Assembly (NCBI GenBank): GCA_946183545.1 | Contig: CAMHCD010000004.1 | Span: 1-35,420 of the forward strand | Length of the DNA: 35,420 nt | Direction of reading: 5' to 3' | From: an uncultured Clostridia bacterium | GTDB taxonomy: Bacteria > Bacillota > Clostridia > Oscillospirales > Acutalibacteraceae | In this document: positions 11,833 through 34,842 of the stretch, piece by piece | Layout of the letters: every line of letters begins with the position of its first letter | Position numbering within the stretch: position 1 is the first letter of the stretch | Notes under the pieces: model-generated | Databases searched by the model: none | What the model was told of the DNA's origin: nothing | What the model saw: the letters and a program-made list of their open reading frames with translations, nothing else | Translations under genes and position numbers: made by a program

Positions 11833-11944
11833 TACGCATAATATAAATCCTCAAATTTATATCTGATAAAAGAATACAAAACCGTGACATTACGCCGAAT
11901 CTGTATAAATATATAAAAATATGTATTTTTTACCGCAATAACTG

Positions 11945-11973: not shown

Positions 11974-12036
11974 ATAGATTCAGGGACTTTGAAGCGTTTT
12001 GAAATAAAGCGCATGATATACCTTAAGGAAGATCAT

Positions 12037-13254
12037 ATGAAATCCGAAAAGATACTAATCAGCTATTTTCAGTTAAGTGAAAAGGAACGTAAAGAACGGT
12101 ATCTGCCCAAAACCTCAGTAGATTGCCTTAAAAAAGGACAAATCGCCGTAGGCAGCGCGCACATAGCTCTGCTAAACGAGGACGGGTCTGTTTCTGCGCG
12201 CGGTAACAACGACTTCGGTCAGTGCAACGTCAACCAATGGAAGGATATCGTCAAGATAGCGGCAGGGGATTTTCACACCGTCGCGCTTAAAAAGGACGGA
12301 ACCGTACTGGCTGCCGGTGACAACGCCTACGGTCAGTGCAATGTAAGCCGCTGGAAGGGCGTTACCGACCTTTTCGCCGAAAAAAACATCACCATCGCCG
12401 TTCACAAAAGCGGCGGTATCCTCATGGCGGTCAAAGCACCAAACGCGGCAACACAAGCCGCGGAGGAAGCCAAAAAGCAAAAACGGCAGGCAGACGCTAT
12501 AGCGGCAGCGGTTGCGGAGGCTGTGGAGCAAAAGCTGCAGCAGACCGTTGTAAAAGCTGTCGTTACGCCACCGGATCAGCCGAAAAAACCTATTGATACG
12601 CCCAAACCGACTCCGACCCCCACTCCGCAGGAAGAAAAAACACCCGTTAAAAAACAAACGGAGAAAAAAAGGGAAACTATTTTCAATAACATCGCAAATT
12701 CCACACCTGCCGGCGAATTCAACTACACCATCATAAACGGTTGCGTAACCATCCAGGGCTACAAGGGAGGACGCAAGGAGATAGTCATCCCCGAAACCAT
12801 CCACGGCAAACCCGTAACCGTAATTGACTCGCACGCGTTTGAGGGCAACGACCAAATCAAACAGCTTACCCTTCCGCGCAATTTGATCCACATCAGCCGC
12901 TTTGCTTTTCGCAGCTGCTCCAATCTAATGTTCTTGGAGTTTCCCGAGGAGTCAAAGCTTGAACGCATAGGAGAATGCGCGTTTGAAAAATGCACCGCTT
13001 TAAAGGGAATGGTTCGCGCCGACATCAGCGACCGCATTGTCCTGCCCAACGGCGTCCAAACCATCGAGCGCTGGGCGTTTTCTCAGTGCTCGGAGCTCAA
13101 AAACGTTGTGATCCCCGATTCTGTTTTGTCCATCGGTTTCAGCGCGTTCGGCGAATGTCCTGCGCTGAAAAGTATACACATCACACAAAACACACAGGAA
13201 CGTCTTGGCAGACTCGATTTGATTACCGACAACATAAACGTCATCAACAAATAG
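12037..13254 (+). CDS. RCC1-repeat plus BspA-type leucine-rich-repeat (LRR_5) protein
   Basis: RCC1: IAAGDFHTVALKKDGTVLAAGDNAYGQCNVSRWKGV and related unit; LRR_5: VTVIDSHAFEGNDQIKQLTLPRNLIHISRFAFRSCSNLMFLEFP, VQTIERWAFSQCSELKNVVIPDSVLSIGFSAFGECPALKSIHI; RBS AAGGAAG before ATG 12037. Confidence 0.82.
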   Translation: MKSEKILISYFQLSEKERKERYLPKTSVDCLKKGQIAVGSAHIALLNEDGSVSARGNNDFGQCNVNQWKDIVKIAAGDFHTVALKKDGTVLAAGDNAYGQCNVSRWKGVTDLFAEKNITIAVHKSGGILMAVKAPNAATQAAEEAKKQKRQADAIAAAVAEAVEQKLQQTVVKAVVTPPDQPKKPIDTPKPTPTPTPQEEKTPVKKQTEKKRETIFNNIANSTPAGEFNYTIINGCVTIQGYKGGRKEIVIPETIHGKPVTVIDSHAFEGNDQIKQLTLPRNLIHISRFAFRSCSNLMFLEFPEESKLERIGECAFEKCTALKGMVRADISDRIVLPNGVQTIERWAFSQCSELKNVVIPDSVLSIGFSAFGECPALKSIHITQNTQERLGRLDLITDNINVINK

Positions 13255-13283
13255 CGTAACGGCACAAACGTGAGGAGAACATC

Positions 13284-14885: not shown

Positions 14886-14904
14886 AAAGGGGAACACGGT
14901 CAAT

Positions 14905-16557
14905 ATGGTTAATCTCGGCGTGGATTTCGGAAGCACCTACACTATGGTTTCCATCTATGAAAACGGCGAACCAAAAACGGTGCAGCCGAGTCATCTCACC
15001 TTTAATTATCCGTCCATCGTCTGCTACGACAGCGACAAGGACAAATACTTTTTCGGCTCTTCCGCAAGGGAAAAGCTCGGCAAAAAAGGCATCACGGGTT
15101 ATCGCGGCTTTAAAATGCTGCTTAACCACCACATGAGCCTTGAAATGCTTAAAGAAAGAAATTACGATGAAAAAAACACTCCCGAATATATAACCGAACT
15201 GTTTTTACGTCACGTAATAGAAAACACTCTGAAAAAACTAAACGAGGACAAGGTCGATCTGTTAGTTATCGGCGCGCCCGAATGTTGGTTCCAAAGCTTT
15301 CAGACCATCGACGCGCGCGGCACCCTGCGCGACATCTGTCAGCAGTTCAAGGATATCGTCAACCGCGTAGAGCTGCGCAGCGAACCGACAAACGCGGCGG
15401 CGTTCTGCGTTTGGAATTTTGAGAAAAAAAGAAAAGAACCCTTTGACGGAAACATTTTGGTAGTCGACTACGGCGGAGGCACTTTGGATACCGCGCTGGT
15501 CAGCGTTGACCACGCCGGCGAAAAGGTGCAGATCAAGCCCGAAATGCTCAGCGGTATCGGCGAAAACAAGGACAAGGAGATAGGAAAAGCAGGCATCGCT
15601 TATCAGGAAGCGGTAGTACGCAAGGCGATCAGTGAAGCGCTGAAGATCCCCGAAGCCGAGTTGGAAACCAACTCGTCATTCGACAGAGCCGTCAAGGAAT
15701 TTGAGGATGCGCTGGTTGCGGACTGCGACTTTGTTGACGAAACCTTTGAGGATTTTGCCGCGGTTCCCGATCAGCTTGCAGACGAAAACTTTACAAGCAT
15801 TGAATTCAACGGAGACACCGTCGATATCGACTTTGCGCAGATGAAACGCGCGTATAATGAAACGATTTATGAACCGCTGCAGCGTGTGCTTGACGAATCG
15901 TCAGCAGAGCTCAGCGCCGACGCAAAGCCGTATTTGGCGCTGGTAGGAGGCTTCTGTAACTTTTACCTTGTCAGAGAACAAATACAAAACTACTTTAACA
16001 TGGGCGGCGTCAACTCCAAGGTAAAGACCCTTTTCCACAAGGAGGAGGACCGCGAAAAGGCTATAGCGTACGGCGCGTGTCTGCTTGCAAACAGGGTCAT
16101 GGACGTATGCAATGTAGCTAACTTCGGCATTGGAATGTACATCAAGTACAGCGACCGCGACCAGGTGTTTATGCGCTACGCGATCAATTTCGGTCAGGAA
16201 TACATCCCCGAAAAAATATACTTTGCCAGAGACAAATCTCAGGCTATCGCGCCCATGATGCTCACCGAAGCGGACACCTTCCTGCTTAATTTTCATAAAA
16301 AACCGGAGTACGGCTTTCCTGCGCGTCCCAAGGCGAAATTTGCCGACGCGCTGAACAAGGCAAAGCATAAATCGATCGTTGTCGTCGGTTTTTCCATCGA
16401 CGGTGCGGAGCGAATAAAGGTACATATCTTCAACTACGATTTTGAGGCGAGCGACGACCGATACGGAACCGATATCCCGCCTGCCGCCACCATTGCGCTT
16501 TCAACCTTTAAGGGCAGCTTTGATAACCTCAAGGTTCCCAACGCCAAACAATTATAG
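14905..16557 (+). CDS. Hsp70/DnaK-like ATPase with atypical short C-terminus
   Basis: LGVDFGSTYTMVSI (phosphate 1), SEPTNAAAF, ILVVDYGGGTLDTAL (phosphate 2), LALVGGFCNFYLVREQI (adenosine motif). Confidence 0.87.
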   Translation: MVNLGVDFGSTYTMVSIYENGEPKTVQPSHLTFNYPSIVCYDSDKDKYFFGSSAREKLGKKGITGYRGFKMLLNHHMSLEMLKERNYDEKNTPEYITELFLRHVIENTLKKLNEDKVDLLVIGAPECWFQSFQTIDARGTLRDICQQFKDIVNRVELRSEPTNAAAFCVWNFEKKRKEPFDGNILVVDYGGGTLDTALVSVDHAGEKVQIKPEMLSGIGENKDKEIGKAGIAYQEAVVRKAISEALKIPEAELETNSSFDRAVKEFEDALVADCDFVDETFEDFAAVPDQLADENFTSIEFNGDTVDIDFAQMKRAYNETIYEPLQRVLDESSAELSADAKPYLALVGGFCNFYLVREQIQNYFNMGGVNSKVKTLFHKEEDREKAIAYGACLLANRVMDVCNVANFGIGMYIKYSDRDQVFMRYAINFGQEYIPEKIYFARDKSQAIAPMMLTEADTFLLNFHKKPEYGFPARPKAKFADALNKAKHKSIVVVGFSIDGAERIKVHIFNYDFEASDDRYGTDIPPAATIALSTFKGSFDNLKVPNAKQL

Positions 16558-16590
16558 TTTATACTTTTTAGTATAAAGGAGTGATGATCC

Positions 16591-18552
16591 ATGCGTTTTG
16601 AAAAAACTGTCGGCGACTTAAATATCGTCAGCGGAGTATCTCCCCGTGATATCGGTCTTTACGAATTACTCGATGTCATGCTTGATTTGTTTATGGACGT
16701 CCGTACCGAAACAGGCAAAGAGCTTTCCGAGCTTGAGGTAGGCGACGAAGCCGCCGCAAAATGGATCGCCGTTGCAAAAGCCCTGCTCAGTATTCCTATA
16801 GACACCTCGACGCTGAACATGACAAAGCGGCGCGCGGAACGACTGAACGACCTGCGCGATGATTTGCGAAGCAAAGAAAAGGACGTTAAAAAAGCGGAGA
16901 AGCAGACCGCCGGTCTGCTTCAGGAGGAAAAGCAGCTCAGGGAGCGGCTGGACGCATGCAACACAACCTACGAAAAGCTCAAAGAAGCGCAGCAGACCGT
17001 TCAGCGCTATCAGGATGAGATAGAACAGTTGGAAGCCGACATCGCCATGATGAACAAGATAGATCACACGGCGGTTACGGAACGCAGGAACCAGCTGCTA
17101 AAAGCAAAGGAAGATCAAACAAAACGCCTTGAGGTATATAATGATTACGCGCGAAAGCTCGACACCGTGCTCGGCGAGCTGGAGCAAACAAATAAATCTA
17201 TAGCCGAGCTTAACAGCAAGCTGGCTCAGGCAAAAGAACAACAGCAAAAAAACGAGCAGACGCTGCGTGAAAAAAACGAGGAGCTGCAGCAGCAACAGGC
17301 GAAAAACGCCGAAAAGCTCGCTCAGCTCAACGCCGAAGCCACACAACAAAACGAACAGCTTGTACAGCAGCAGGAGCTGCTTGCTTCAAAAAGCGAGGAG
17401 TTAAGGCGATCCGGCGATTTGCTTGAAAATCTGGTAAAGAAAAACGCCGCTCTAAAGGCGGAGGCTGTACGGATCCAAGCAGAAACCGAAGAGCAGCAGA
17501 GGCTTGACGCCGAAGCAGAGGAAAAGATCACCGGACTTAAAAACGCTCTGGTAAAGGAAAAAGAGCACTTGAACCAAACCGAACAAATGCTGCAAACCTT
17601 AAACAGCGAGCACAAGCACCTGAAATGGGAGATCGAAGCGCTTAAGGAGCGCAAGGCAGCCTTTGAAAAGGAGTACACGGAACAGCAGGAAACCAAGCAG
17701 TCGCTTGAATACACCATAGCCAAAAAACAAGAAGACATCAACGGGTGCAACAGCGCGCTGGCACAAATGCGGCTTCGCGCGGAGCAAAAAGCCAAGGAGC
17801 TTGCAGAGCTTAACGAGGAACGCGCCATTGCAGAACAGGCGTACAACGAAGCGCAGACTGAGGAAGCCGAGCTGCAAGCCAACATTGAATCGCTTCGTAC
17901 AGAGCTTGCAGGCGTCAACAGCCGTATAGCTTCGGCAAGCGCCGACGAATCCGAGATCAATGCCAAGCTTGCCGTTCAGCAGGAGGAGCTTCAGGAAAAA
18001 ATCGACGCCCAAAACGAAAGCATAAAATTGATACAAGCAGAAATAGACAAGCTGACCACACGGCTAAACGGCGTAGATGAAGTGTGCGCCACCCTGAGCA
18101 GTGAAAAAGAAGCGGTAGAAGCACGCTGCAACGAAAAGCAGGATGAGATCACCTCACTGCACCAAGAGATCAGCCGTCTGCGCAAGGAAGAAGAACTGCT
18201 AAAACAAGAAGGCGAGACCTGCGAAATCGAAATAAAACGCGGGGAAGATAAGCTATCCGAGCTGCACGAGGCGATCGAAGCCTACAAGGTATTTTTCAAC
18301 TCGGATGAATGTAAAAGAACACAGCAGGAGATCAACCGTCTGGAGCGCATCTCCAACCTGTATCAGGAAGGCATAAAGAGCATGTTCGGCGGCATGTCTC
18401 CGCCTGTGGAGCACCTCGGTAACTTCCGCGCGGACTTTGACAACCGCAAAAAACAGCTCAAAAACGAGATCGCGCAGGTGCGTGCCTCTTTGAACGGGCT
18501 CAGCAAGGATTACCTTGACGTTGTTGCCCGTATAGAAAGAGAGGTGAGCTGA
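16591..18552 (+). CDS. long coiled-coil protein
   Basis: ~400+ aa of heptad-like Glu/Lys/Gln/Leu-rich sequence; no Walker A found, so not an SMC ATPase; RBS AAAGGAG. Confidence 0.82.
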   Translation: MRFEKTVGDLNIVSGVSPRDIGLYELLDVMLDLFMDVRTETGKELSELEVGDEAAAKWIAVAKALLSIPIDTSTLNMTKRRAERLNDLRDDLRSKEKDVKKAEKQTAGLLQEEKQLRERLDACNTTYEKLKEAQQTVQRYQDEIEQLEADIAMMNKIDHTAVTERRNQLLKAKEDQTKRLEVYNDYARKLDTVLGELEQTNKSIAELNSKLAQAKEQQQKNEQTLREKNEELQQQQAKNAEKLAQLNAEATQQNEQLVQQQELLASKSEELRRSGDLLENLVKKNAALKAEAVRIQAETEEQQRLDAEAEEKITGLKNALVKEKEHLNQTEQMLQTLNSEHKHLKWEIEALKERKAAFEKEYTEQQETKQSLEYTIAKKQEDINGCNSALAQMRLRAEQKAKELAELNEERAIAEQAYNEAQTEEAELQANIESLRTELAGVNSRIASASADESEINAKLAVQQEELQEKIDAQNESIKLIQAEIDKLTTRLNGVDEVCATLSSEKEAVEARCNEKQDEITSLHQEISRLRKEEELLKQEGETCEIEIKRGEDKLSELHEAIEAYKVFFNSDECKRTQQEINRLERISNLYQEGIKSMFGGMSPPVEHLGNFRADFDNRKKQLKNEIAQVRASLNGLSKDYLDVVARIEREVS

Positions 18553-19040
18553 TGGAATGTAAATGCTGCGGAGAATCCGTAGAAAACGACCTGGCAAAAT
18601 GTTCCGTCTGCGGATTTCCGCTGCTGGGTGACCTCGGAGACAAGCTTCCGCAGATATTATCTGACTATCGCAACACCCTGCTTCATGACGTATCGCTCGC
18701 CGTCAAGCTGTATTATTACGGCTACGACGAGGACGGAGAAATGGGCGAACTAAAGAGCGAGTATGTAAAGGTGGCAGACGCGCCGGCGCTGACGCACGAC
18801 AACATTTTTTGGCTGGACACCGTCTTTGAGCCGTCCGGTATCAAACGAACTGTCACTCTGGATGTACGCGTTCAAAATGACAAGACATCACGGGATTCCG
18901 CTTTGAGCGCCGACCTCGGCAAGGTTCCCGAAGGGGGACGGCTCGGGATTTGCCTTTGCAAGGGATACCGTGTGAGGTTTGCCTTGGGCAACAAAAAACA
19001 AAGTATATTAACAGACAGCATTTCTTTACTGATAAAATAG
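18552..19040 (+). CDS. zinc-ribbon protein with beta-rich C-terminal domain
   Basis: MECKCCGESVENDLAKCSVCGFPLLGD (CxxC...CxxC); ATG overlaps the upstream stop (TGATG). Confidence 0.75.
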   Translation: MECKCCGESVENDLAKCSVCGFPLLGDLGDKLPQILSDYRNTLLHDVSLAVKLYYYGYDEDGEMGELKSEYVKVADAPALTHDNIFWLDTVFEPSGIKRTVTLDVRVQNDKTSRDSALSADLGKVPEGGRLGICLCKGYRVRFALGNKKQSILTDSISLLIK

Positions 19041-19055: not shown

Positions 19056-20507
19056 ATGTCAATCGTATCAAAGCTGTTCGGAGGAGAGAAAGCATCGGTG
19101 ATCGGCAACGCCGTCAACAGCTCTCAAAGCGCAGCACAACAAACAATGGAAACACAGAAAAAGCTTGATGAGGATCGCGCCATCCATATGCGCATCGACG
19201 ATGGATTCTTTCAGTTGATGACCGATCCCGAGATAGCGCAAAAAAGCCGCGCTGCTGCCGCCGCAAACGAGGCAAAGCTCGACAAGATGAAGGCTTCCGT
19301 TGACGCCATGAACGAAGCGGGCGGCGAAAAGGTCAGCAAGCTTTGGGAAATGGAAAAGGACTTGTATATAGTTCCGGGCGGCTATTCCGAAATGCCGAGC
19401 GAGACCAACGATATTCCAAAAACAAATTTGGATGTATATAACCGCGCTGTTGAAGCGCTTGCGCGCGGATTCAAACAAAAAACCTCCGCAGACGCCGTTG
19501 AATCCGGCGCAGACCGTTTGGAGGGCTTTGTTGTTGACTTTATCGGCAACCTTCGCAACGCTTTGGAAACCGGCCGCGCAATGAAGGCAAACGCCTGCAT
19601 CGATATGATCAAGTATGTGCTGGTTGTCGGTTACCGTTACGAGGACGCGTCCGATCCCGAAAAATTTGAAGAACGCGTTTCAAGAAAGGTCGATTTCATC
19701 AGCTCCACCGGTAAACATCTTATCGATTCTATCGACAACTATTACAACCTGCTGGTCAACTACGAGCTGGACGAGGAAGCCTACGCACAGGCGCTGCGCG
19801 AGTTTGATAAAGCCATTGAGCCCTACAACCGCGACTGTCCGCCCGAGGTCAAGGAAAAGCTCGACCGTTTGGGCTTTAAGCGCGCAATGCGCGAGCTGCC
19901 TGCAGGAGACGACGCCAGAAAGTACATGGGCGTTCTTATAGCGTCCGAATCCTATTTGACCAGAGCGCTGATGGGCAGTCTCAGACTGGAAGCTTTTTCG
20001 ATGGAGATCCTGACCGAACGCGGAAATATTCAGGAGCTTATAAACGAGTGCAAAAAAGCCTTTGCAGCGTCGGGCGATAACTTTGACTTTCACGCTCATG
20101 TCAGAATGCTCGAGCAGATCCGCCAGAAGAATATCAACGAGATCAACAAGCTCAACGATATGGTTGCCGAGCGCGAGGATCTTGACAGAAGGACTCAGGC
20201 ACTGCTTGAAGAAGCAGCTGAAAACGAAAAACTCGCCGACGCGGTAGCAAATGCCGCCATGGCGATCGATAAATATGAGCACATCCAAAAGCGCAACCAG
20301 AAGTTAGCTCAGCGCGAAAAAGAAACTCGCAACGCGTATGCCGTAAAGCAAAAGCAGCTTATGGAAGAAGAGCTGGAAAGACAAAGACTGGAGCAGGAAG
20401 AATTCGAGCGTATCCAGCAAGAGCTTGAAGAAATGGAACAGATGCAGCAGGAAGAAGCGCCGATTGAGAACATTCAGGAAGAACAGGAAATTTTGGTCAC
20501 CGAATAG
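19056..20507 (+). CDS. uncharacterised alpha-helical/coiled-coil protein
   Basis: RBS AGGAGG; Ala/Glu/Lys-rich helical composition; acidic C-terminus. Confidence 0.78.
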   Translation: MSIVSKLFGGEKASVIGNAVNSSQSAAQQTMETQKKLDEDRAIHMRIDDGFFQLMTDPEIAQKSRAAAAANEAKLDKMKASVDAMNEAGGEKVSKLWEMEKDLYIVPGGYSEMPSETNDIPKTNLDVYNRAVEALARGFKQKTSADAVESGADRLEGFVVDFIGNLRNALETGRAMKANACIDMIKYVLVVGYRYEDASDPEKFEERVSRKVDFISSTGKHLIDSIDNYYNLLVNYELDEEAYAQALREFDKAIEPYNRDCPPEVKEKLDRLGFKRAMRELPAGDDARKYMGVLIASESYLTRALMGSLRLEAFSMEILTERGNIQELINECKKAFAASGDNFDFHAHVRMLEQIRQKNINEINKLNDMVAEREDLDRRTQALLEEAAENEKLADAVANAAMAIDKYEHIQKRNQKLAQREKETRNAYAVKQKQLMEEELERQRLEQEEFERIQQELEEMEQMQQEEAPIENIQEEQEILVTE

Positions 20508-20522: not shown

Positions 20523-21401
20523 ATGGCTTTTGACAATTGGAAACTTGACAGAAAAGTCAACAAGGCGGAAAAGAAAATCGCGAAAAAAGAAAAGTACGCC
20601 GATAAAATGGTAAAATCCGACGACAAGCTCACCAAGCTGACGCATCGCGTTGAAGACGCGCAGGAAAAAATCGTTTCCGAGGAATGGTACGCCAAGCATC
20701 TGGATCACACCCGCGTTGATCTGGAAATCCGCGAAGCAAGACAAAATCTGTTTGAGCAAAGACAGCGTCTGCTCAGAAGATTGATCATATTCAATAAGGA
20801 ATACAAGTATATTCTTACAAAGCCCGACACATCCGTAAAAATGCGCGAGCTGCAGCGCTGCTCCACCGGAGCCAAAAACGCCGCTTACGCTCTGGCTGTC
20901 GTTGACGACGCCATCGACCGTTTAGACAGCATCCGCTCCGAGCTGGAGTGGAGAGAGATCATGCGCGACCTTACCAAGGGCTATAAGCTTATGAACGCTA
21001 TTTCCGTCGGCTCCGACCTTATGACCCGTCTTGCGTTTTTGCTGCAAAAGGCAAAACACGACATCAAAGGCGATATCTCTGTTGAGGCAATGGAGTATTA
21101 CTACGGCAAGCCCATTGACACCCTTCTTGAGGAACAGACCGGCGAGGCAAATGCCGCCGATATGCTCGTACAAAACTCCGTACTTGATTTAAACGACGAG
21201 GACGCGGTTTGTGAGGCTATACGTTGGGGCAGTATTTTTACCGTTCGTCCCAGCGTTGCCGCCGATGTTGCGGAGCAGCAGAGCGAGAAGGCAAAAAAAA
21301 CCGGTTCCACTCCGATCTACAACAAACCCGAAGAAACCTTTAACGAAGTTAAGGATTTTTCCGCTACCATGGACGCGTCAGATTTGCCTGACATGCTGTA
21401 A
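20523..21401 (+). CDS. uncharacterised alpha-helical protein with basic N-terminus and acidic C-terminus
   Basis: RBS GGGAGG; MAFDNWKLDRKVNKAEKKIAKKEKYADKMVK...; C-terminus ATMDASDLPDML. Confidence 0.78.
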   Translation: MAFDNWKLDRKVNKAEKKIAKKEKYADKMVKSDDKLTKLTHRVEDAQEKIVSEEWYAKHLDHTRVDLEIREARQNLFEQRQRLLRRLIIFNKEYKYILTKPDTSVKMRELQRCSTGAKNAAYALAVVDDAIDRLDSIRSELEWREIMRDLTKGYKLMNAISVGSDLMTRLAFLLQKAKHDIKGDISVEAMEYYYGKPIDTLLEEQTGEANAADMLVQNSVLDLNDEDAVCEAIRWGSIFTVRPSVAADVAEQQSEKAKKTGSTPIYNKPEETFNEVKDFSATMDASDLPDML

Positions 21402-21416: not shown

Positions 21417-23087
21417 ATGGACAACACATTGCTTCGCAATTTAAAGAATAAAGAAAACCAGTGCCGCAACCTGCAAAAGCAGGCGGATCAGGTTTACATC
21501 AACAACGGCAGGAACTACAGCGAGGATCAGTGTATCCTGCTGCAGCGCGCCGCAGACCTTGAATCCGAGATGGCAGGCATGACCATCGGCGCCGAGAGCG
21601 ACCATCATGTTAGAGAAAAGAACCGTCTTGACTATGACATAATGCGCATCCGCAGCAAACTGGAAAGCGTCGGTTCCTCTTCCGCGCAGCCGGCAAAAAA
21701 GCCCGATAAGTCAGGCAATCCCGCCAAGGAAATGAAGGAAACCGAAAAAACCAAGGACGAGCAGGAGCTTGACCGCGCCGCACGCACCTGGTACAAGGAA
21801 AGTCCGCGCCATTCGTTTGACGACGTGGCCGGCATGGAGCAGCTTAAGAAAAAACTCAAAAGCTGCCTTTCCGACGCTCAGGCAGGCGACCTCAGAGAAT
21901 ACCTCAAGATCCCGCGTTTGAACTCCTATTTCTTTGTAGGACCTCCCGGATGCGGTAAAACCTTCATCATCGAAGCATTCGCGCATGAGCTGATGGATCA
22001 GGATTACAAGTTCATATCCATCCTCGGCTCCGACATCATCAGCAAATATGTCGGAGCGGCAGAAAAGAGCGTTACTCGACTGTTTGAGGAAGCCGTCAAC
22101 AGCGCACCCTGCATAGTGTTTGTCGACGAGATCGACAGCCTGTGCAAAAACCGCTCGCTCCCCAACCTTCCCGAATACGCGGCAAATATCACAACCTCGT
22201 TTTTGACCGGCTACAACCGTATCCACAGCGAGGATTCCAATGTAATATTCATCGCCGCCACCAACTATCCCAACCGCGTTGACGCCGCAATGCTCGACCG
22301 TGCCGAGATAATCCGCCTTCCTTTGCCCGACAAGGAAGCAAGAAAGGCTGCTTTTATACGCTGCTTTGAGGACATCATCTCGCTGAAAAAGGATTTGAGC
22401 TTTGATATAATGGCTGAAAAGACATGGCGCTTCAACTACCGCGATATCGAACGCCTTACCGCTGCTCTAAAACAAACCCTCTTCCGCGATCTGCTCGATT
22501 TGTTCGGAGATCAGGATATCGCCATCGACGCGCTTAAGACCGGCAAATACAAGCTCTCGCTTGATAAGTTTGAAGCAGTCTTGGCGGACTTTAAGCCCTC
22601 TCCAAAAGAAATGATCATCAACGATCTGGTCGAGTGGGAAAAATCCGTACAGTCCGTTGTTGACATCGCCGAAACCGATCCCGCGGCGCTGTATGACTGC
22701 GAGCCCTTTGAAGAAGCTTCTAAGACATCGGAATCCGAAGAACAGACGGAAGAGCCGGAAGAAGCTACGCAGGAAGAACCGGCGCAGGAGTCTGCCTGTA
22801 CCGACCCCGTATATCCGCTCAGCGACAGCTTCACCGTGGATCCTTTAAAGGGTGTGGCGGAAATCAGCTTTTCTATCGGCGCGCGCCCGGCAACAGACGT
22901 AAAGCTCGTTGTAAACAGCGAGCTGGTTATTCCCGAATCAGACGGCAGCAAGTACACCTTTATTTATGAGCCGGAGGATGACGAAACCGAGGTCGAGGTC
23001 TTTGTAAGAGACAGCGCCGGTTATATCGGCTCATTTACCGCCGTTATCAACAGAGCTATTACCGACAATAAGGATTTTGATATTTAA
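21417..23087 (+). CDS. classical AAA+ ATPase (Cdc48/Vps4-like) with helical N-terminus and beta-sandwich-like C-terminal domain
   Basis: SFDDVAGMEQLKKKL, Walker A GPPGCGKT, SDIISKYVGAAEKSVTRLFEEA, Walker B CIVFVDEIDSL, ATNYPNRVDAAMLDR; RBS GGGAGG. Confidence 0.9.
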   Translation: MDNTLLRNLKNKENQCRNLQKQADQVYINNGRNYSEDQCILLQRAADLESEMAGMTIGAESDHHVREKNRLDYDIMRIRSKLESVGSSSAQPAKKPDKSGNPAKEMKETEKTKDEQELDRAARTWYKESPRHSFDDVAGMEQLKKKLKSCLSDAQAGDLREYLKIPRLNSYFFVGPPGCGKTFIIEAFAHELMDQDYKFISILGSDIISKYVGAAEKSVTRLFEEAVNSAPCIVFVDEIDSLCKNRSLPNLPEYAANITTSFLTGYNRIHSEDSNVIFIAATNYPNRVDAAMLDRAEIIRLPLPDKEARKAAFIRCFEDIISLKKDLSFDIMAEKTWRFNYRDIERLTAALKQTLFRDLLDLFGDQDIAIDALKTGKYKLSLDKFEAVLADFKPSPKEMIINDLVEWEKSVQSVVDIAETDPAALYDCEPFEEASKTSESEEQTEEPEEATQEEPAQESACTDPVYPLSDSFTVDPLKGVAEISFSIGARPATDVKLVVNSELVIPESDGSKYTFIYEPEDDETEVEVFVRDSAGYIGSFTAVINRAITDNKDFDI

Positions 23088-23098: not shown

Positions 23099-24592
23099 AT
23101 GTCTACCGAATCGACAAACATTGATTATATGAGCTTTGACGAGCGGTTCCGCACCTGCTTTGGAGAAATGCTCGTCTATAAGTCCTCAGAAAACACCAAG
23201 TTTTTTGCGGATCAAAGTATGCCGTCGTTTATCCGTGACTGGCTTATGATGCGATTTTCCGATGAAAACGGCGTAATAGACGAGGCGAAAATCTCCGCGT
23301 ACATCAAAAAGAATATTCCTCAAAAGGAACAGTGGCAGTACATGTTAGTTGACATGCTGCATTACAATAAACCGGCAAGGTTTCTTGCAAAAATCAAAAT
23401 CGACTTTGATATGCGTAAAAAGAAGGCGCTGTTTTCGCTCCCTGCTTTTCAGGTGCCTGCCCATAAAGGCGAGGCGGTCGTTGACTGGGATGTTATCGAG
23501 CGCCACCGCGACGAGCTTCTTTCCTCCACGGACGTGTGGGGTATCGTCACGATCCGCTGCGAACAGGACGACGAAAAGAAAAACAATATTTTTAAGCTTG
23601 TAGATTTTACGCCGTTTTGTCCCTATCATATCGATCTTAAATACTATATAAACGCGCGTAAGTTTTTTACCGTTGAGGAATGGATCGACATAGTTTTGGG
23701 CGCTATAGACTATAACGCCTCCGGCTACAGCAGTCAAAGCGAAAAGCTGGTGATTCTCAAACGTCTGTTGCCTTTTGTCGAAAAGCGCGTCAACCTTGTT
23801 GAGCTGGCTCCAAAGGAAACCGGCAAATCTTATCTGTTCTCTCGCTTAAGCCAATACGGTTGGCTTGTAAGCGGCGGAAGTATTTCGCGCGCCAAAATGT
23901 TTTACGACATCTCCAAGCGTACAAACGGACTTGTTTCAAAGTACGATTTTGTAGCATTAGATGAGATTTCCAGCATAAAATTCACCGACCGCATGGAAAT
24001 GCAGGGCGCTCTTAAAGGATATTTAGAGAGCGGCGACTATCACGTCGGAGATTACCACGGCGTGGGTGAGTCCGGCTTGATATTACTCGGTAATATCAAT
24101 GCCGCATCCATGGATATCAACACCAACATGTTTGAGCATCTTCCGGAATTCTTCTGTGATTCCGCCCTGCTTGACCGCTTTCATGGTTTTATAAAGGGTT
24201 GGGATATTCCGAAAATGCGTGAAAGCCTCAAGGCGAACGGCTGGGCGCTCAATACAGAGTATTTTGTGGAGATTTTGCACGCTCTTCGCAGCGAATCGGT
24301 GTACCGTTCCGTTGTGGATAAGCTTGTGTGCATCCCTCCCAACGCCGCAACGCGCGACACAGAGGCGATCAAACGTCTGTCAACCGCGTTTTTGAAGCTG
24401 CTGTTTCCGCACGCGACCGACGTCAGCGAAATAGACCCGGCAGAATTTGAAACCTACTGTCTTACACCGGCAATGGAAATGCGCGGTATAATCAAAACAC
24501 AGCTCGGTATTCTTGACCCGGGCGAATTTCAGGGAAAGCAAATACCGTCCGTTACACTGAACGACGAATATCTTCCCTCAGGAGTAAATTAA
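23099..24592 (+). CDS. BrxL-like (Lon-related) AAA+ ATPase lacking a Lon protease domain
   Basis: NARKFFTVEEWIDIVLGAIDY...LKRLLPFVEKRVNLVELAPKETGKSYLFSRLSQYGWLVSGGSISRAKMFYDISKRTNGLVSKYDFVALDEISSIKF...LILLGNIN; ends soon after the AAA region, no visible Lon Ser/Lys dyad segment. Confidence 0.82.
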   Translation: MSTESTNIDYMSFDERFRTCFGEMLVYKSSENTKFFADQSMPSFIRDWLMMRFSDENGVIDEAKISAYIKKNIPQKEQWQYMLVDMLHYNKPARFLAKIKIDFDMRKKKALFSLPAFQVPAHKGEAVVDWDVIERHRDELLSSTDVWGIVTIRCEQDDEKKNNIFKLVDFTPFCPYHIDLKYYINARKFFTVEEWIDIVLGAIDYNASGYSSQSEKLVILKRLLPFVEKRVNLVELAPKETGKSYLFSRLSQYGWLVSGGSISRAKMFYDISKRTNGLVSKYDFVALDEISSIKFTDRMEMQGALKGYLESGDYHVGDYHGVGESGLILLGNINAASMDINTNMFEHLPEFFCDSALLDRFHGFIKGWDIPKMRESLKANGWALNTEYFVEILHALRSESVYRSVVDKLVCIPPNAATRDTEAIKRLSTAFLKLLFPHATDVSEIDPAEFETYCLTPAMEMRGIIKTQLGILDPGEFQGKQIPSVTLNDEYLPSGVN

Positions 24593-24593
24593 A

Positions 24594-26252
24594 ATGACAG
24601 AACCCGAACTTATACGCCTCTCGCAATTCAAGGTCAAATGCGACAGCGTTAAACATTCTCAAATACGCGTTAATGAATCTCTGAGCAACAGCCCCAACCG
24701 GCTTATCGGCTATTCGGAGTACATTGATGTATTCCGAAGTCTGATTCCCATAGTAGCTTACTCCGACGACGGCTCAGTTAGCGAATGGAATGATTTTTCC
24801 GAGATTTTTCCCGACGTTTTTCCTACGGAACACGGCACCGGCTCGGCTGTCCTGCTGACCGGCGATACGGGCTGCGGCAGACATACCGCAGACAAGACCC
24901 TGATGAGCGTGGCTCTTGAGGTCGTACGAAATCAGGCTGAGAAGGATTCCGACGATGATGATCTGTACGGAATGGCTGAGGAGCCTAATTTGGAGGATCA
25001 TCTGCGCTATTTTGTAATGGACTTGCGCTGTTTGAGCGGCAGCGCCGAACGGACTGTCATGCGCGAGCTCGACTCGCTTTTTCAGCAAATGGTTGACTCC
25101 GCAGTAAAAGAGCCGTCTGTGTTGTTTTATTATTCCTTGGGCGACGTTACCGAGATATTAAACAGCCAACGCGTTTCACAGCGGTTTTTATATCAGCTTG
25201 AAAATCTGATCCGTGATCCGCGCTCAAACTGTATCGTCACCTGCATCTACAACGGCAAAGCGTCTACTCTTTCCGAACTTCAAAAAGCGCCGTTTTATGT
25301 GCTGGACTTCACGCTGCCATCCGAGGCGGCAAGAAAAGAATACTTCCGCTTTTTGTCGGAGCGTTACTTGAATATCACCTTTGACTACAGCGCCGACGAG
25401 CTTGCTTCAATGACCGAAGGATTTACATTTGCTCAAATAAAAAAACTGGCGGCACATATTATGATGACCGTAAAATCGGAAATCATAAAGAAAAATCTGA
25501 ACCCCGAAAACTATGTGCGCCACGCTACTATCAATCAGTTTGAAGTGATCTTGGTCGATAAAGCATGTGTAAACCGTCTGGTAAAGCAGATCAAAAACAC
25601 GCGTTATGTTGAGCCAAAGCCAAACGTACCTGCTGTGATGTATGCCGCATCCGCTGCAGAACAGGCTACAAACCCGACAGCTGAGTCAAATCAAAATCAA
25701 ACTACCGAGGTGCAGGTCAGGGAGCGTGTCGTAATTTCGGCAAAAGACGGAGAAAACATAGATGACGTAGTAAGCAATACGCTTGATCAAATAGACACTC
25801 CGCAACAAATAGCCGACATCCGCAAATCAATGATCATACCCACCGGTTATTCGCCTGTTCTTCTTATGGAGAGCGGCAGGATAAACCGTCAGGTTTTGCA
25901 GAAAGAGGGCATTTCGTTAAAACGTTTCCTGTCGGCATGTTGGGAACGCGGCTTTACCGATCTGTCAAACGTTCAGTCTGCCTTTGTTGACTCAAGCGCC
26001 GACTTTGGTATCGGCTTCCGCGCTGTTGATTCTTCGTTGTTAACAGAACCGGGCAGCGTTAAACTGAAGCAGGAAGGCGAAAGCCTGTTTGGTGAAGTGA
26101 TAGTGGAGGGCGAGCTCCGCGAGGACGCGCTCCACAACAGCGGCCACAGCACAGATTGGTTGATACAACAGCTTGTTCGTCAAGGCTGCAGCCATCCTAA
26201 ATCGATTTTCCTCGCCGTCATCAATAAGGACGACAGATTGATCATCTATTAA
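24594..26252 (+). CDS. degenerate AAA+-like protein with two YetF/DUF421-like C-terminal repeats
   Basis: Walker A-like LLTGDTGCGRHT (Lys replaced by Arg), non-canonical Walker B region SVLFYYSLGD; C-terminal VLLMESGRINRQVLQKEGISLKRFLSACWERGFTDLSNVQSAFVD and VIVEGELREDALHNSGHSTDWLIQQLVRQGCSHPKSIFLAVIN. Confidence 0.68.
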   Translation: MTEPELIRLSQFKVKCDSVKHSQIRVNESLSNSPNRLIGYSEYIDVFRSLIPIVAYSDDGSVSEWNDFSEIFPDVFPTEHGTGSAVLLTGDTGCGRHTADKTLMSVALEVVRNQAEKDSDDDDLYGMAEEPNLEDHLRYFVMDLRCLSGSAERTVMRELDSLFQQMVDSAVKEPSVLFYYSLGDVTEILNSQRVSQRFLYQLENLIRDPRSNCIVTCIYNGKASTLSELQKAPFYVLDFTLPSEAARKEYFRFLSERYLNITFDYSADELASMTEGFTFAQIKKLAAHIMMTVKSEIIKKNLNPENYVRHATINQFEVILVDKACVNRLVKQIKNTRYVEPKPNVPAVMYAASAAEQATNPTAESNQNQTTEVQVRERVVISAKDGENIDDVVSNTLDQIDTPQQIADIRKSMIIPTGYSPVLLMESGRINRQVLQKEGISLKRFLSACWERGFTDLSNVQSAFVDSSADFGIGFRAVDSSLLTEPGSVKLKQEGESLFGEVIVEGELREDALHNSGHSTDWLIQQLVRQGCSHPKSIFLAVINKDDRLIIY

Positions 26253-26254: not shown

Positions 26255-26302
26255 ATACAAAAACGGTGTGATTTTTCCTGAGAAAAGTCACACCGTCTTT
26301 TT
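26255..26302. terminator. bidirectional terminator between convergent genes
   Basis: ACGGTGTGA (26263-26271) / TCACACCGT (26288-26296), A-tract on the left and T-tract on the right. Confidence 0.85.
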
Positions 26303-26314: not shown

Positions 26315-28018
26315 TTAATATGCCACTCTTACGTTGCCGTGCTGCCGCATTATTTCTTCGGAGTTTGCGCGTTCCATCGCCTTTGGCATGATACGGAGGA
26401 ATTCATCTACCTCTTCTTCGGTATTATAAATACCAAAGCTGATGCGTACCATACCGGGCGTATTGATATCGGCACAATTGCTGAACTGGTCAAGATCATC
26501 GTCGGAAATGCCCATCAAACGCCATACATACGGATGCGCGCAAAATGCGCCGCGTCTGGTGGCTATGCCGCCGAGCTCAGACAACTGCTCCGCCAGCAGA
26601 TAGGAATTGATGTTAGAGAAGTTAAATGTCACCACGCCGACCTTATCGCTGATGTTTTCAGTGTCACCGTAGATAATGATGTTATCAAACTTTTTCAAAC
26701 CGTTGATCAGCTTTTTATTCAACACCTGCTCGTGTTCGGAAATATCATCAAAACCTACCTCGGTCAGTACGTCGATCGCCTTGCCTAAACCGACAACGCC
26801 GGGATAGTTCGGCGAACCGGCTTCATAAGCCGCAGGCGCGTCCTTATAGGTAACGCTGTAGTCACCTACGATCTTGACCGTGCCGCCGCCGTAGAAGGTG
26901 GGCATGTGCTTATTAAGTATATCGGTTCTGCCAACGACAGCGCCGCCGCCGTAGGGAGAATACATCTTGTGTGCGGAGAAAACAAAGAAGTCGATATCAT
27001 CATAAGAGCTGTTGCCGGTCATCGAAAATTCACGGTGAGCCACTATCTGTGCGCCGTCCACAACTACTTTGGCGTTGTAACGATGTGCCAGCCTTGCAAC
27101 ACGGTGAACATCGGTTACATATCCGGTCACGTTTGAAGCGGCGGTTACGGATACATATTTTACCTTGTTTTCTTTGAGCATACGCTCCATATCGTCGTAG
27201 TCGATACGACCTTTTTCATCGACCTCGGAGTAAATCACATGACAGCGCTCGCGCCATGACAAATCGTTGGCATGATGCTCCATGCGTGTGGTAAGAACAA
27301 TGTCGCTCTCCTTTTCAATAAGCGCGGAAGCCAGCTTGTTCAAACCGTCGGTGGTGTTGTTTACATAGAAGCAGGTGTAATCGCTTTCATCCGCATTAAC
27401 AAAACTGAGCACCTTTTTTCTTACGCTGTTATACACGTCGGTAGAGTGGTTGGATTTTTGTGAAAAGCCGCGTCCGATGGAGCCGTACATCAACAGTTCG
27501 TTGTTGACCTCGTCCATTACGGGTTTGAAGGCGGGTGTCGTGGCGGCATTATCAAAGTTGATCAACGCCCTTTGTGTTCCGTCCGCAAGAGTTACAGGCT
27601 GGTCAACGCCTACAATATAGTTGCGGATATTGTTGATCGTATATGTTTTCTGAGTCGTTGTTTCTTCCTCTTCGGGCTCTTCCGGCTCATCTGCCTCGTC
27701 GATAGTAGCAAGACCTGCTACGACCTTCTGGATCAAGGTCACATCGTTGATATCGATCTGCCCATCGGAGTTTGCGTCTGCGCCGTACTTGCTGTACTGT
27801 TCGGATTCAAAGCCTTCAACAATCTCCTTGTGTCCGGCTAAATAACGCTGAACGAGGGTGGCGTCGTTGATATTGACAACGCAGTCGTAATTTACATCAC
27901 CTAACCTTGAATCCGGTTCGACTTCGTTGTTTTCTGCCGCAAAAGCGGTTACTGACGCTGCTGAAATCATTGTGAGAATGGACATGAGCAAGCATAATAG
28001 TTTTTTTCCTTGTTGCAT
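26315..28018 (-). CDS. secreted dockerin-containing class V aminotransferase (cysteine desulfurase/SufS-like)
   Basis: Signal peptide MQQGKKLLCLLMSILTMISAASVTAFAAEN; dockerin repeats GDVNYDCVVNINDATLVQRYLAG and ADANSDGQIDINDVTLIQKVVAG; PLP lysine region FVFSAHKMYSPYGGG; GAFCAHPY cysteine loop. RBS AGGAGG before ATG 28018 (track start at 28048 is upstream). Confidence 0.88.
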   Translation of the reverse strand: MQQGKKLLCLLMSILTMISAASVTAFAAENNEVEPDSRLGDVNYDCVVNINDATLVQRYLAGHKEIVEGFESEQYSKYGADANSDGQIDINDVTLIQKVVAGLATIDEADEPEEPEEEETTTQKTYTINNIRNYIVGVDQPVTLADGTQRALINFDNAATTPAFKPVMDEVNNELLMYGSIGRGFSQKSNHSTDVYNSVRKKVLSFVNADESDYTCFYVNNTTDGLNKLASALIEKESDIVLTTRMEHHANDLSWRERCHVIYSEVDEKGRIDYDDMERMLKENKVKYVSVTAASNVTGYVTDVHRVARLAHRYNAKVVVDGAQIVAHREFSMTGNSSYDDIDFFVFSAHKMYSPYGGGAVVGRTDILNKHMPTFYGGGTVKIVGDYSVTYKDAPAAYEAGSPNYPGVVGLGKAIDVLTEVGFDDISEHEQVLNKKLINGLKKFDNIIIYGDTENISDKVGVVTFNFSNINSYLLAEQLSELGGIATRRGAFCAHPYVWRLMGISDDDLDQFSNCADINTPGMVRISFGIYNTEEEVDEFLRIMPKAMERANSEEIMRQHGNVRVAY

Positions 28019-28083
28019 GGATATCCTCCTTAAAATTTTAGTGAGCAAAGTATATCACACAGAGTATAACAAAACCCTTACAA

Positions 28084-29397: not shown

Positions 29398-30246
29398 TTA
29401 TTTTAGTTTATTGGATAACTCCGTCAATTCCTCGTCGGAGTAAAATTCGATTTGAAGTACGCCGCCTTCTTTTCCCTTGTTTTTGGAAATGCTTATTTTT
29501 CTGCCCAAGGCTTCATTAAGCGCAAGCTCAACCATACTGTAGAAGGACGGCTTTTTTTCGGTTGACTCGGTTTTTGGTTTCTTTGCGGATTTTTTACACA
29601 GGGTCTCCGTTTGTCTTACTGACAGATCTTTGCTGACTATCAGCTCAGCCATTTGAATCATATCATCTTCACTGTCCAGCGACAACAGAGCTCTTGCGTG
29701 ACCGGCGCTGATTTGATCGCTGTTCAACAGTTCTTTTATACTGTCGGGCAATTTGATCAATCGTAGAGCGTTTGCAACCGCGGGTCGGGATTTTCCGACC
29801 GACTGTGCGACCTCCTCCTGAGTAAAACCGTGCTCGGTCATCAGCACCTGATATCCTTCGGCTTCTTCTAAGGGAGTCAGATCCTCACGCTGCAGGTTTT
29901 CGATCAAAGCCAACTCCATTGTTTCCGCTTCACCCAGTTCACGGATGATAACGGGAACCTCGGTCAATCCTGCCATACGACAGGCACGATAACGGCGTTC
30001 ACCTGCTACGATCTCATATCCGCCCAAAGCGAGCGGTCTGACAAGCAGAGGCTGCAGCAGACCATGCTTTGAAATACTGTCGGCGAGCTCCGACAGTGCT
30101 TTTTCATCAAACTCCTTACGCGGCTGTGAACGGTTCGGCTCAATGTCTGCTATTTTCAGCATTACGCCGCCGTTGCTGTCCTCGCTGTCGTTTTCCATAA
30201 ATATAGCGTTCAGACCCTTGCCCAAACCGCCGAATTTCTTTGCCAT
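29398..30246 (-). CDS. parB: ParB/Spo0J chromosome partitioning protein
   Basis: LGKGLNAIF, EPNRSQPRKEFDEKALSELADSI, GERRYRACRMAG, ENLQREDLTPLEEAEGY. Confidence 0.96.
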   Translation of the reverse strand: MAKKFGGLGKGLNAIFMENDSEDSNGGVMLKIADIEPNRSQPRKEFDEKALSELADSISKHGLLQPLLVRPLALGGYEIVAGERRYRACRMAGLTEVPVIIRELGEAETMELALIENLQREDLTPLEEAEGYQVLMTEHGFTQEEVAQSVGKSRPAVANALRLIKLPDSIKELLNSDQISAGHARALLSLDSEDDMIQMAELIVSKDLSVRQTETLCKKSAKKPKTESTEKKPSFYSMVELALNEALGRKISISKNKGKEGGVLQIEFYSDEELTELSNKLK

Positions 30247-31022
30247 CAGCGTTTCTCCTTTGCAATGATTTCGTTTGCCAGTTCCGTATACGCGTGGCTT
30301 CCCTTACAATTCTTATCATAGTAAATAACCGGCATTCCAAAGCTGGGCGCCTCGGACAAACGCACGCCTCGGGTGATAACCGTACCGAACACCTTGCCGG
30401 GGAAGAATTTTTTTACTTCCTCCACCACCTGCTGAGTCAGGTTAAGTCTGCCGTCATACATAGTCAGCAATACACCCTCAAGCTCAATCGAATAGTTATA
30501 CTTACGTTTTATGCGGCGCACAGTACTCATAAGCTGTGATAATCCCTCCAGCGCATAATACTCACACTGAATAGGCACGATAAACGAATCCGCAAGCGTA
30601 AGCGCATTGGCAGTTATAAGTCCGAGCGACGGCGGACAGTCGATTATAATATAATCATAGTACTGCTTGATGGGTAAGATCGAGTTTTTAAGCAGTGCCT
30701 CCCTGTGAGGTTTTTCGGCTATTTCCAATTCTGCCGCGGCAAGATTTATGCTTGACGGAAGCAAATGCAGGTTTTGGTATGGGGTAGTTATCACACATTC
30801 CTCTGCCTTTGCGCCTTCCACAAGGATATCATAGGTGGACAGTCCCACCTTGCTCTTATCTATGGCAACTCCGCTTGTAGCGTTACCCTGCGGATCGGCG
30901 TCTACCAACAAGACCTTTTTTCCCAACGCTCCCATGCAAGCGGCAAGATTAACAGCCGTTGTGGTTTTTCCCACGCCGCCCTTTTGATTTGAAATTGCAA
31001 TAATTTTTGCCACTTTCTTCAA
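30246..31022 (-). CDS. parA: ParA/Soj ATPase
   Basis: [20 protein letters not shown] deviant Walker [17 protein letters not shown]; overlaps parB start by 1 nt. Confidence 0.97.
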
Positions 31023-31112
31023 TTCCTTACTTTCAAAAATTTCACTGCCATATAGTATATCACATCTGAGCTTCTTTTTGAAGTGATTTAGACCAGATTT
31101 TTTAATTTTTTA

Positions 31113-31128
31113 TGTTTCACGTGAAACT
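31113..31128. promoter_or_regulatory. parS-like site TGTTTCACGTGAAACT
   Basis: 15/16 match to the perfect site, upstream of parA. Confidence 0.88.
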
Positions 31129-31139
31129 TTTACGGCAAC

Positions 31140-31173
31140 GCAAAAAACCGTGTATTTCTACACGGCTTTTTGC
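31140..31173. terminator. putative bidirectional terminator hairpin
   Basis: GCAAAAAACCGTGTA-TTTC-TACACGGCTTTTTGC. Confidence 0.65.
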
Positions 31174-31207
31174 AAGGGGTTAGATAAGGAAATGGGTATG
31201 AGTGGAA

Positions 31208-31226
31208 TTGGATGCATTGCATCCAA
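31208..31226. repeat. 19-bp near-perfect palindrome TTGGATGCA-T-TGCATCCAA
   Basis: 9-bp inverted arms around a single central base, in the parA/parB2 intergenic region. Confidence 0.9.
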
Positions 31227-31278
31227 GTGGAAAGTAAATTAGGAAATCAATTGTTTCACGTTTGTGACTTTAGCGTCA

Positions 31279-32109
31279 CTAAGCACTTTTATGAGACTTC
31301 AATACCTGAGCTTTCGGGATCCTGATTGTGTATTCGATAAAATTGTCATTGTCTGCTTGGTTTGTTTGAGCGTTGATTCCGGCAAGTCTCATGGCGTCAA
31401 CAGCCTTATAAATAGTGTTTTCAAAAATTCTAAAGTCTTTTATCACCGCTTTGCTGTTGCTCCGTTTATGTTGTTTTGGAGCATTATTCAATAAAATGCT
31501 CACCAGCGTTTCGGTCTGCTTGACATTAAGATTATCCGAAATAACCTTTGACAGTGCCTCGCGGCGAATACTCTCGTCATCCAGCCGAAGCAGAGAACGG
31601 GCGTGACGTTCGCTTAGTCCCGCGTTTTCGATCCATTCCTGTTCCTCTGCGGACAGCCTAAGCAGCCTGAGCTTGTTGGCAACAGCCGACTGGGTTTTAC
31701 CGATCTTCCTTGCCGCCTGTTCCTGAGTCAAACCGTAACGGCGTATCAGTCTTGAAATCCCGCGAGCCTCCTCAAATATACCGAGGTCGGCTCGCTGCAG
31801 ATTTTCAAGAAGAGCGTATACGGCAGACTCTTTATCAGAGCATTTTACAACAATACAGGGAACCTTTCTGAGTCCTGCCATAACAGAAGCGCGCAGTCTT
31901 CTTTCGCCGGCAATCAGCTCGTATTCCGACGCGCTGACCTTTCTCACGGTAAGCGGCTGCAAGATACCGTTTTCCGCAATTGACTGTGACAAGGATTGCA
32001 AGTCGGATTCGGCAAACTGTTTGCGAGGCTGGGATTTATTCGGTCTTATTTTGATGATTGGAATATCAAGTATCGTATTCTCACTTTTAACCATAAAATT
32101 CAACCGCAT
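31279..32109 (-). CDS. noc: second ParB-family protein (Noc-like position)
   Basis: IRPNKSQPRKQFAESDLQSLSQSI, GERRLRASVMAGLRKVP, ENLQRADLGIFEEARG; lies between rsmG and parA as noc does in Bacillus. Start ambiguous (32112/32109/32094). Confidence 0.85.
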   Translation of the reverse strand: MRLNFMVKSENTILDIPIIKIRPNKSQPRKQFAESDLQSLSQSIAENGILQPLTVRKVSASEYELIAGERRLRASVMAGLRKVPCIVVKCSDKESAVYALLENLQRADLGIFEEARGISRLIRRYGLTQEQAARKIGKTQSAVANKLRLLRLSAEEQEWIENAGLSERHARSLLRLDDESIRREALSKVISDNLNVKQTETLVSILLNNAPKQHKRSNSKAVIKDFRIFENTIYKAVDAMRLAGINAQTNQADNDNFIEYTIRIPKAQVLKSHKSA

Positions 32110-32239
32110 CACCCAATGTATTACCTCAGGGCTTGTCCCTGTGCAATTATAATATCACATTGGCGACGCGGTTTTTGTCAAACGTTGAGCAAATATTTTA
32201 TTTTGTTTTGTCTGTTATTAAACTATAATGTCGAATAGA

Positions 32240-32956
32240 TCATAACGGTTTTGATTTGATACGTCCGTTGTTGCGCGGATATTTGTCCGGGGTAGGTCGG
32301 ATCTTTTCAATTGCGACCAAGCTGCGGCTGCCGCCCTCCATCGGTAGTTCAAACGAATGGACCGCCTGCAATTTGCCGCCTAAGGTGTCGATGGCGCGTT
32401 TTGCGTTCTGTACCTCTTCTTCACAGCTGCCGCCCTTAAACGCAACAAAGGTTCCCGACAGTCTTGCAAACGGCAGACAATACTCGCTGAGTACATTAAG
32501 CTGAGCCACGGCACGGGAAACAACAAAGTCATAACCTTCGCGGTGATCTAAATCCTGACCATACTCCTCTGCCCTGCCCTGCAAAAATTCGGCTTCAAGT
32601 CCAAGTTGACTGATAAGCTCTTTTAAAAACAAAAAGCGTTTGTTAAGGCTGTCAAGTAAAGTCAGCTTTATATCGGGACGAACGATTTTAAGCACGACTC
32701 CCGGAAATCCTGCTCCGGTGCCTATATCTATCACACGCGCGCCCTCTTTGTTCAAATTAAAATAATTATAAAATGCCATGCTGTCCGCAAAATGCTTGAC
32801 CGCCACTCCCTGAGGGTCGGTTATTGCGGTAAGATTGATTTTTTCGTTCCACTCACACAGCAGCTTATAATACAATTCAAAACGCGAATATGTCTGCGGA
32901 GTCAACAATAATGAATAATCTTTAATTGCCTTTTCAAGTAACTTATTAAATCTCAT
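32240..32956 (-). CDS. rsmG: 16S rRNA (guanine527-N7)-methyltransferase
   Basis: KINLTAITDPQGVAVKHFADSMAF, VIDIGTGAGFPGVVLKI, SRAVAQLNVLSEYCLP; RBS AGGAA before ATG 32956. Confidence 0.96.
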   Translation of the reverse strand: MRFNKLLEKAIKDYSLLLTPQTYSRFELYYKLLCEWNEKINLTAITDPQGVAVKHFADSMAFYNYFNLNKEGARVIDIGTGAGFPGVVLKIVRPDIKLTLLDSLNKRFLFLKELISQLGLEAEFLQGRAEEYGQDLDHREGYDFVVSRAVAQLNVLSEYCLPFARLSGTFVAFKGGSCEEEVQNAKRAIDTLGGKLQAVHSFELPMEGGSRSLVAIEKIRPTPDKYPRNNGRIKSKPL

Positions 32957-32964
32957 AACAATTC

Positions 32965-34830: not shown

Positions 34831-34842
34831 AATTTTTCCTCT

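Follow-up and report, generated by a model that had tools for sequence, protein, structure and literature searches.

BrxL has been stated to be specific to BREX types 1 and 4 (PMC12839542). The stretch of DNA analysed here (the window, 35,420 nucleotides from an uncultured Clostridia bacterium) nevertheless carries a gene for a BrxL-like ATPase and, as an initial annotation had pointed out, no BREX genes. The same annotation regarded the P-loop of the protein and its missing protease-like tail as further oddities. The locus therefore raises the question of what kind of BrxL is encoded here and what it may do in such surroundings.

The BrxL protein of the window

The open reading frame is real and contains all the motifs quoted for it, and its product (W18) is a BrxL according to Pfam, NCBIfam and PADLOC. 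Pfam domain BrxL_N (PF20442) covers residues 20-153 (E 2e-20) and BrxL_ATPase (PF13337) covers residues 165-481 (E 2e-113). With TIGR02688 it scores 426 bits (cut-off 329), which places W18 in the BrxL family, and the PADLOC BrxL model PDLC02505 (482 aa) matches it with an E value of 1e-202. The gene and its parts are as follows:

23099-24592, + strand: brxL (W18), a BREX-4-type BrxL of 497 aa without a Lon-like tail
23156-23557, + strand: BrxL_N domain (PF20442), the DNA-contacting N-terminal region in solved BrxL
23591-24541, + strand: BrxL AAA+ ATPase domain (PF13337)
23807-23830, + strand: Walker A motif APKETGKS (residues 237-244)

The P-loop does read APKETGKS, but this is an ordinary sequence for a BrxL of BREX type 4. 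Among 73 BREX-4 BrxLs, A237 is universal (73/73) and E240 is common (15/73), and the same P-loop is present in BrxLs of genuine BREX-4 operons. In two of these loci (L009 and L028), the BrxL is 67% identical to W18 and is encoded together with BrxP, BrxC and PglZ (PADLOC names). A degenerate P-loop can thus be ruled out. Walker A, Walker B and sensor residues of W18 are intact, with the catalytic GKS and DE retained; residues K243, S244, D288, E289, N332 and R360 are shared by the nine BrxLs of the island described below, by all 73 BREX-4 BrxLs and by the long-form BrxLs compared.

The tail is indeed absent. W18 aligns to residues 92-464 of the 679 residues of a solved BREX type 1 BrxL (8emc) and only 19 C-terminal residues remain beyond the match, which leaves no room for the Lon-like domain of ca. 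180 aa that characterizes the long form of type 1. This, too, is the rule rather than a peculiarity, and no protease need have been lost: BREX type 4 BrxLs normally have no C-terminal extension (PMC12839542), and all 80 relatives fetched in a GTDB-wide scan are of the short form, one of them being a partial gene. The C-terminal domain of long-form BrxL has itself been reported to lack a Ser-Lys dyad (PMC12839542). W18 thus shares the N-terminal and AAA+ domains and the catalytic motifs with type 1 BrxL (8emc/8emh), but not the Lon-like domain through which two rings of the solved protein are paired, while its length, domains and P-loop are those of BREX type 4 BrxL. We conclude that W18 is a BREX type 4 BrxL, predicted from its motifs to be ATPase-competent.

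A conserved operon without BREX-4 BrxP and BrxC

The brxL gene of the window is the fourteenth in an operon of 15 genes, W05-W19, which had been overlooked in the initial annotation. The other members, and a candidate terminator, are:

5632-6426, + strand: W05, VWA-domain protein 1, TerY-like (PF00092, weak match, E 9e-4; conserved)
6423-7712, + strand: W06, PP2C-type phosphatase with a zinc ribbon (PF13672)
7737-9461, + strand: W07, kinase-like protein with a C-terminal hydrophobic segment (motifs read by eye)
9471-10259, + strand: W08, VWA-domain protein 2 (PF00092, E 5e-9)
10285-11832, + strand: W09, PP2C-type phosphatase 2 (PF13672)
11989-13254, + strand: W10, RCC1 repeats and BspA-type LRR (PF13540, PF13306)
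13284-14885, + strand: W11, conserved protein, possibly with a degenerate AAA-like fold (conservation, AF2 model)
14905-16557, + strand: W12, Hsp70/actin-fold ATPase (PF00012, profile positions 2-373 of 599)
16591-18552, + strand: W13, long coiled-coil protein (coiled-coil/SMC-type matches only)
18552-19040, + strand: W14, small zinc-ribbon protein (CxxC..CxxC by eye; conserved)
19056-20507, + strand: W15, all-helical protein of no known family
20523-21401, + strand: W16, helical protein of no known family
21417-23087, + strand: W17, Cdc48/Vps4-like AAA ATPase (PF00004, E 5e-31), ending 11 bases before brxL
24594-26252, + strand: W19, degenerate AAA-like ATPase with a YetF-type C-terminal domain (PF04239; matches to YetF structure 3c6f and to AAA proteins), starting 1 base after brxL
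26263-26296, + strand: candidate intrinsic terminator closing the operon (15-pair stem and T-run)

Several of these assignments require comment. W07 has no Pfam kinase match; it contains a Gly-rich loop, a conserved lysine, DYNIKN and DSDSFG, the residues of which are invariant in four relatives. The PF00012 match of W12 covers positions 2-373 of 599, and no substrate-binding domain was recognised in this protein. The AF2 model of W11 (pLDDT 72) hints at an AAA-like fold, its AAA matches being weak (E above 0.005), and neither this model nor that of W15 has a significant match in the PDB. A "TelA" label for W15 was dropped, there being no supporting Pfam match in seven members. The terminator scan of the last stretch returned one candidate, against 1.2 in shuffled sequences.

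The neighbourhoods of the 80 BrxL relatives were compared. In 71 of them brxL lies beside BREX-4 genes, in one the contig is too short, and in the remaining eight (L024, L025, L026, L027, L039, L040, L050 and L052) it lies beside homologues of its neighbours in the window; we refer to this arrangement as the island. The initial claim that W18 lies outside BREX is thus strengthened, since the non-BREX setting is conserved in eight other genomes. The nine-gene core W11-W19 is complete in the window and in L025, L026, L027, L039 and L050. In L024 and L052, it begins part-way at a contig edge; in L040, brxL and W19 are preceded by the end of a tail-bearing gene. BrxL, the Hsp70-like protein and the AAA protein are the best-conserved island products (W17 is 59-76% identical in six relatives).

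The set W05-W10 (VWA, PP2C, kinase-like, VWA, PP2C and RCC1/LRR proteins) accompanies the core in the window, G301 and G306, and is found partly on separate contigs in G300 and G307. It is absent before the core in G302, G303 and G304, the G303 contig having only ca. 1.2 kb before the core. Five genomes thus have the set and three lack it in front of the core, so the signalling part is not obligatory. Downstream of W19, L026 carries three tandem genes of the W10 (RCC1/LRR) type (13374-17512).

We searched the nine island genomes for BREX partners. BrxP and BrxC of BREX type 4 were found in none of them (0/9, most being incomplete MAGs), while both were detected in a control genome with a genuine BREX-4 operon. 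The genome of the window is 91.6% complete, and each of the nine genomes has a single PF13337 match. The PglZ model PF08665 finds nothing in the window's own genome and in seven of the eight others, but it misses the divergent PglZ of the related BREX-4 clade and is inadequate as the sole test, for which reason the BrxP and BrxC searches were added and are the stronger negatives. The one weak PF08665 match, in G307, is a lone 437-aa ORF. In the island loci no PglZ adjoins brxL, an apparent one in L026 having turned out to be the C-terminal tail of W17. The island thus contains a BrxL of the BREX-4 clade and lacks BrxP and BrxC.

One could suppose that brxL is left over from a BREX-4 locus that has decayed, a relic or hitchhiker that plays no role in the operon, the more so because its nearest kin outside the island are BREX-4 BrxLs, one of them from the same bacterial family. 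This is scarcely credible and has been largely refuted by the data at hand. Counting that of the window, eight genomes keep the gene between W17 and W19, and L040 retains the brxL-W19 pair; the reading frames are full-length with intact motifs; and in L050/L052, the sole pair unsaturated at silent sites, dN/dS for BrxL is 0.105. It follows that brxL is under purifying selection. A gene that does look decayed was seen elsewhere among the relatives: the brxL of L012/L015 (G128 C62, 26513-27398) is broken, its two pieces lying in different frames, with a TAG. A further locus, L131 (6304-17835 of MT835511.1, labelled Bacteriophage sp.), encodes BREX-4 BrxP, BrxC, PglZ, BrxL and a cysteine desulfurase and is either real phage cargo or a mislabelled contig.

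Descent of island BrxL and the C-terminus shared by W17 and PglZ

In a maximum-likelihood tree of BrxL (55 rows, rooted on long BrxLs), the nine island proteins form one clade with a support of 91/97, slightly under a strict threshold, with two long branches (L039 and L040); 92% of bootstrap trees require a single change. This clade lies inside a 100/100 clade with 13 BREX-4 BrxLs, and a long branch separates type 1 BrxLs from the island. The tree of W17 agrees with that of BrxL in its branching order, with low inner supports, and the W12 tree is less clear. Phylogeny had been proposed as a check on whether W18 is simply a BREX BrxL with its partners elsewhere in the genome: the island clade is indeed nested among BREX-4 BrxLs, but the BrxP and BrxC searches revealed no such partners.

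A link to BREX was found instead in the gene preceding brxL, where two features can be distinguished:

22788-23084, + strand: W17 C-terminal domain (residues 458-556), a homologue of the BREX-4 PglZ C-terminus and candidate module for docking BrxL
23055-23084, + strand: C-terminal tail of W17, AITDNKDFDI, matching the tail motif

The last 100 residues of W17 from L026 match the last 98 residues of BREX-4 PglZ. An hhalign comparison of W17 with the PglZ C-terminus gave a probability of 97.9% (E 3.8e-13, 88 columns) and a score of 72.5, compared with a maximum of 18.8 in 50 column shuffles. When 2756 ORFs and proteins were searched with a profile of the W17 domain, hmmsearch retrieved only island W17 proteins (plus a truncated frame, L136) and BREX-4 PglZ. 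The motif [IL]..[NS]..F[DN][IL] at the very C-terminus, chosen after the sequences had been seen, occurs in 21 of 2712 ORFs (a few of the 21 being one gene present in two loci), all directly upstream of brxL: pglZ in BREX-4 and W17 in the island. BREX-4 and the island thus have in common a C-terminal domain and tail encoded just upstream of brxL. This shared C-terminus, like the conserved synteny, had escaped the initial annotation.

Could a short BrxL-binding tail have evolved twice, the two C-termini being convergent? The PglZs of Selenomonadaceae BREX-4 loci (L034-L038) lack the beta-rich C-terminal domain and keep a GIxKNxxF[DN]I tail, which speaks for convergence: their retention of the tail alone points to the tail as the minimal unit. 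We nevertheless consider convergence quite improbable, given that the similarity extends over 88 columns, well beyond the tail, and is strongest with the PglZ of the BREX-4 sister clade.

A version of the operon without brxL was also recovered. When 396 genomes of the order were searched with a W16 profile, one distant match emerged, in G973 (contig L138). The gene order of this contig is a kinase-RCC1 fusion, W11-like, Hsp70-like, coiled coil, membrane protein, W15/W16-like, W17 AAA and W19-like AAA. The last two follow each other directly, and there is no BrxL on the contig (16 kb). The L138 W17 has 414 aa; it aligns to residues 1-412 of the W17 of the window and then ends, the PglZ-like C-terminal domain being absent. 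This layout, seen on one contig, suggests an insertion of brxL between W17 and W19. The kinase-RCC1 fusion (10795-14481, - strand), with a kinase-like domain and at least 17 RCC1 repeats, recalls the kinase-like and RCC1 proteins, which are encoded by separate genes in the window.

Taken with the shared C-terminus, L138 makes a joint capture of the 3' end of pglZ and brxL the simplest account. An ancestral operon with the Hsp70-like ATPase, coiled coils, the Cdc48-like AAA, the degenerate AAA and kinase/RCC1 parts would have captured, in a single event, a BREX-4 fragment consisting of the 3' end of pglZ and the adjacent brxL, and the AAA gene would thereby have gained the PglZ C-terminal domain and its FDI tail. 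We lean towards this reading as a whole: through such a capture, a BREX-4 BrxL would have become part of another operon, one conserved in gut and rumen clostridia, where it would dock on the AAA protein.

Possible function and known systems

The PglZ C-terminus would dock BrxL in BREX-4, and W17 would replace PglZ as the dock in the island by means of its tail; docking of BrxL through this element is probable. A common domain and FDI tail on the otherwise unrelated PglZ and AAA proteins offer a concrete candidate site for the coupling of BrxL to its BREX partners, one that is open to testing with a peptide.

Acinetobacter BrxL forms rings which encircle DNA, and restriction requires its ATPase activity; ATP-dependent assembly on DNA has been shown for this BrxL only (PMC10164562). 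In the island, the kinase-like, PP2C and VWA proteins, where present, might set the trigger through phospho-control, and a complex of the chaperone and AAA proteins might control the loading of BrxL rings onto DNA and their translocation. This would most likely serve to defend the cell against foreign DNA or as a stress response to it. Among the products of the operon no nuclease was recognised, which leaves a DNA-directed effector unexplained and makes a block or stripping of DNA-bound processes as likely as cleavage.

The chaperone-like and AAA-like neighbours and the lack of a recognised nuclease would also fit a BrxL that has lost its role on DNA and instead remodels proteins, as the AAA ring of a chaperone assembly with the Hsp70-like and Cdc48-like proteins. 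We hold this to be improbable: the DNA-contacting BrxL_N domain is retained, and the pore-facing basic position corresponding to R104 (mapped via 8emc) is K or R in all nine island BrxLs.

Kinase-PP2C-VWA modules recur in defence loci (PMC11090510). The TerY-P triad consists of a TerY-like VWA protein, a PP2C phosphatase and a zinc-ribbon kinase, and the island likewise has VWA, PP2C and kinase-like genes side by side. Unlike TerY-P, it has no recognisable Ser/Thr kinase with a C-terminal zinc ribbon: the zinc ribbon is on the phosphatase, and the kinase-like W07, which Pfam does not recognise, ends in a hydrophobic segment. PADLOC matched none of the island VWA and PP2C proteins except for one weak, unrelated hit. 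Extensions of Type III-A CoCoNuT systems have two VWA genes around a SpoVK/Cdc48-like ATPase; a duplicated VWA gene, a Cdc48-like AAA and an Hsp70-like protein are also found in the island, but Pfam scans of its proteins with general models recognised no McrB-type GTPase (CnuB), CnuH/CnuE, helicase-HEPN or McrC-type protein. As compared with BREX type 4 (BrxP, BrxC, PglZ, BrxL and a cysteine desulfurase), the nine island genomes have no BrxP, BrxC or convincing PglZ, and BrxL is accompanied by AAA, Hsp70-like, VWA and PP2C proteins.

TerY-type triads have been linked both to tellurite and metal response and to DNA-processing systems (PMC11090510), and no other defence genes were recognised in the window. 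The operon might accordingly have a function other than defence, in the envelope or in the response to metals or stress, with BrxL acting on DNA of the host itself, which we consider possible but rather unlikely. Characterised BrxLs serve phage restriction, and the island is patchily distributed: marker W15 was found in 1 of 300 genomes of the family, three genus-mates included. No clean empty site was seen among the genus-mates, the region next to serS being variable, and searches of a plasmid collection (with W16) and a phage collection (with W12) gave no match to the island. By analogy, we rate a defence role of the operon at about even chances. Similarly balanced is our judgement of a broader proposal: the island would be a machine for immunity or stress response, not described before and independent of BREX, whose Cdc48-like AAA ATPase has taken over from PglZ the C-terminus on which BrxL docks, and BrxL would be a portable DNA motor with an equally portable tag for docking.

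Judging by the island, BrxL is not confined to BREX in its action, at odds with what PMC12839542 states, and the island offers a natural setting in which BrxL may be studied without methylation or phosphorothioation machinery. Among the openly readable papers listed, none pairs TerY-P with BrxL, though the operon may have been described before; on an orphan, BrxL-like or BREX-4 protein the same literature yielded one paper, on BrxA.

The genes adjoining the island were also inspected. On one side (86-5417) lie PgfM/PgfS-like glycosyltransferase genes and a gene for a GtrA-like protein. On the other, a parB-parA-noc-like-rsmG-mnmG-mnmE block (29398-35409, - strand) includes a second ParB paralogue, the noc-like W24. 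A gene at 26315-28048 (- strand) encodes a PLP enzyme resembling SufS and cysteine desulfurases, which carries a dockerin domain at its N-terminus and begins like a signal peptide; the fusion is unusual and apparently exported.
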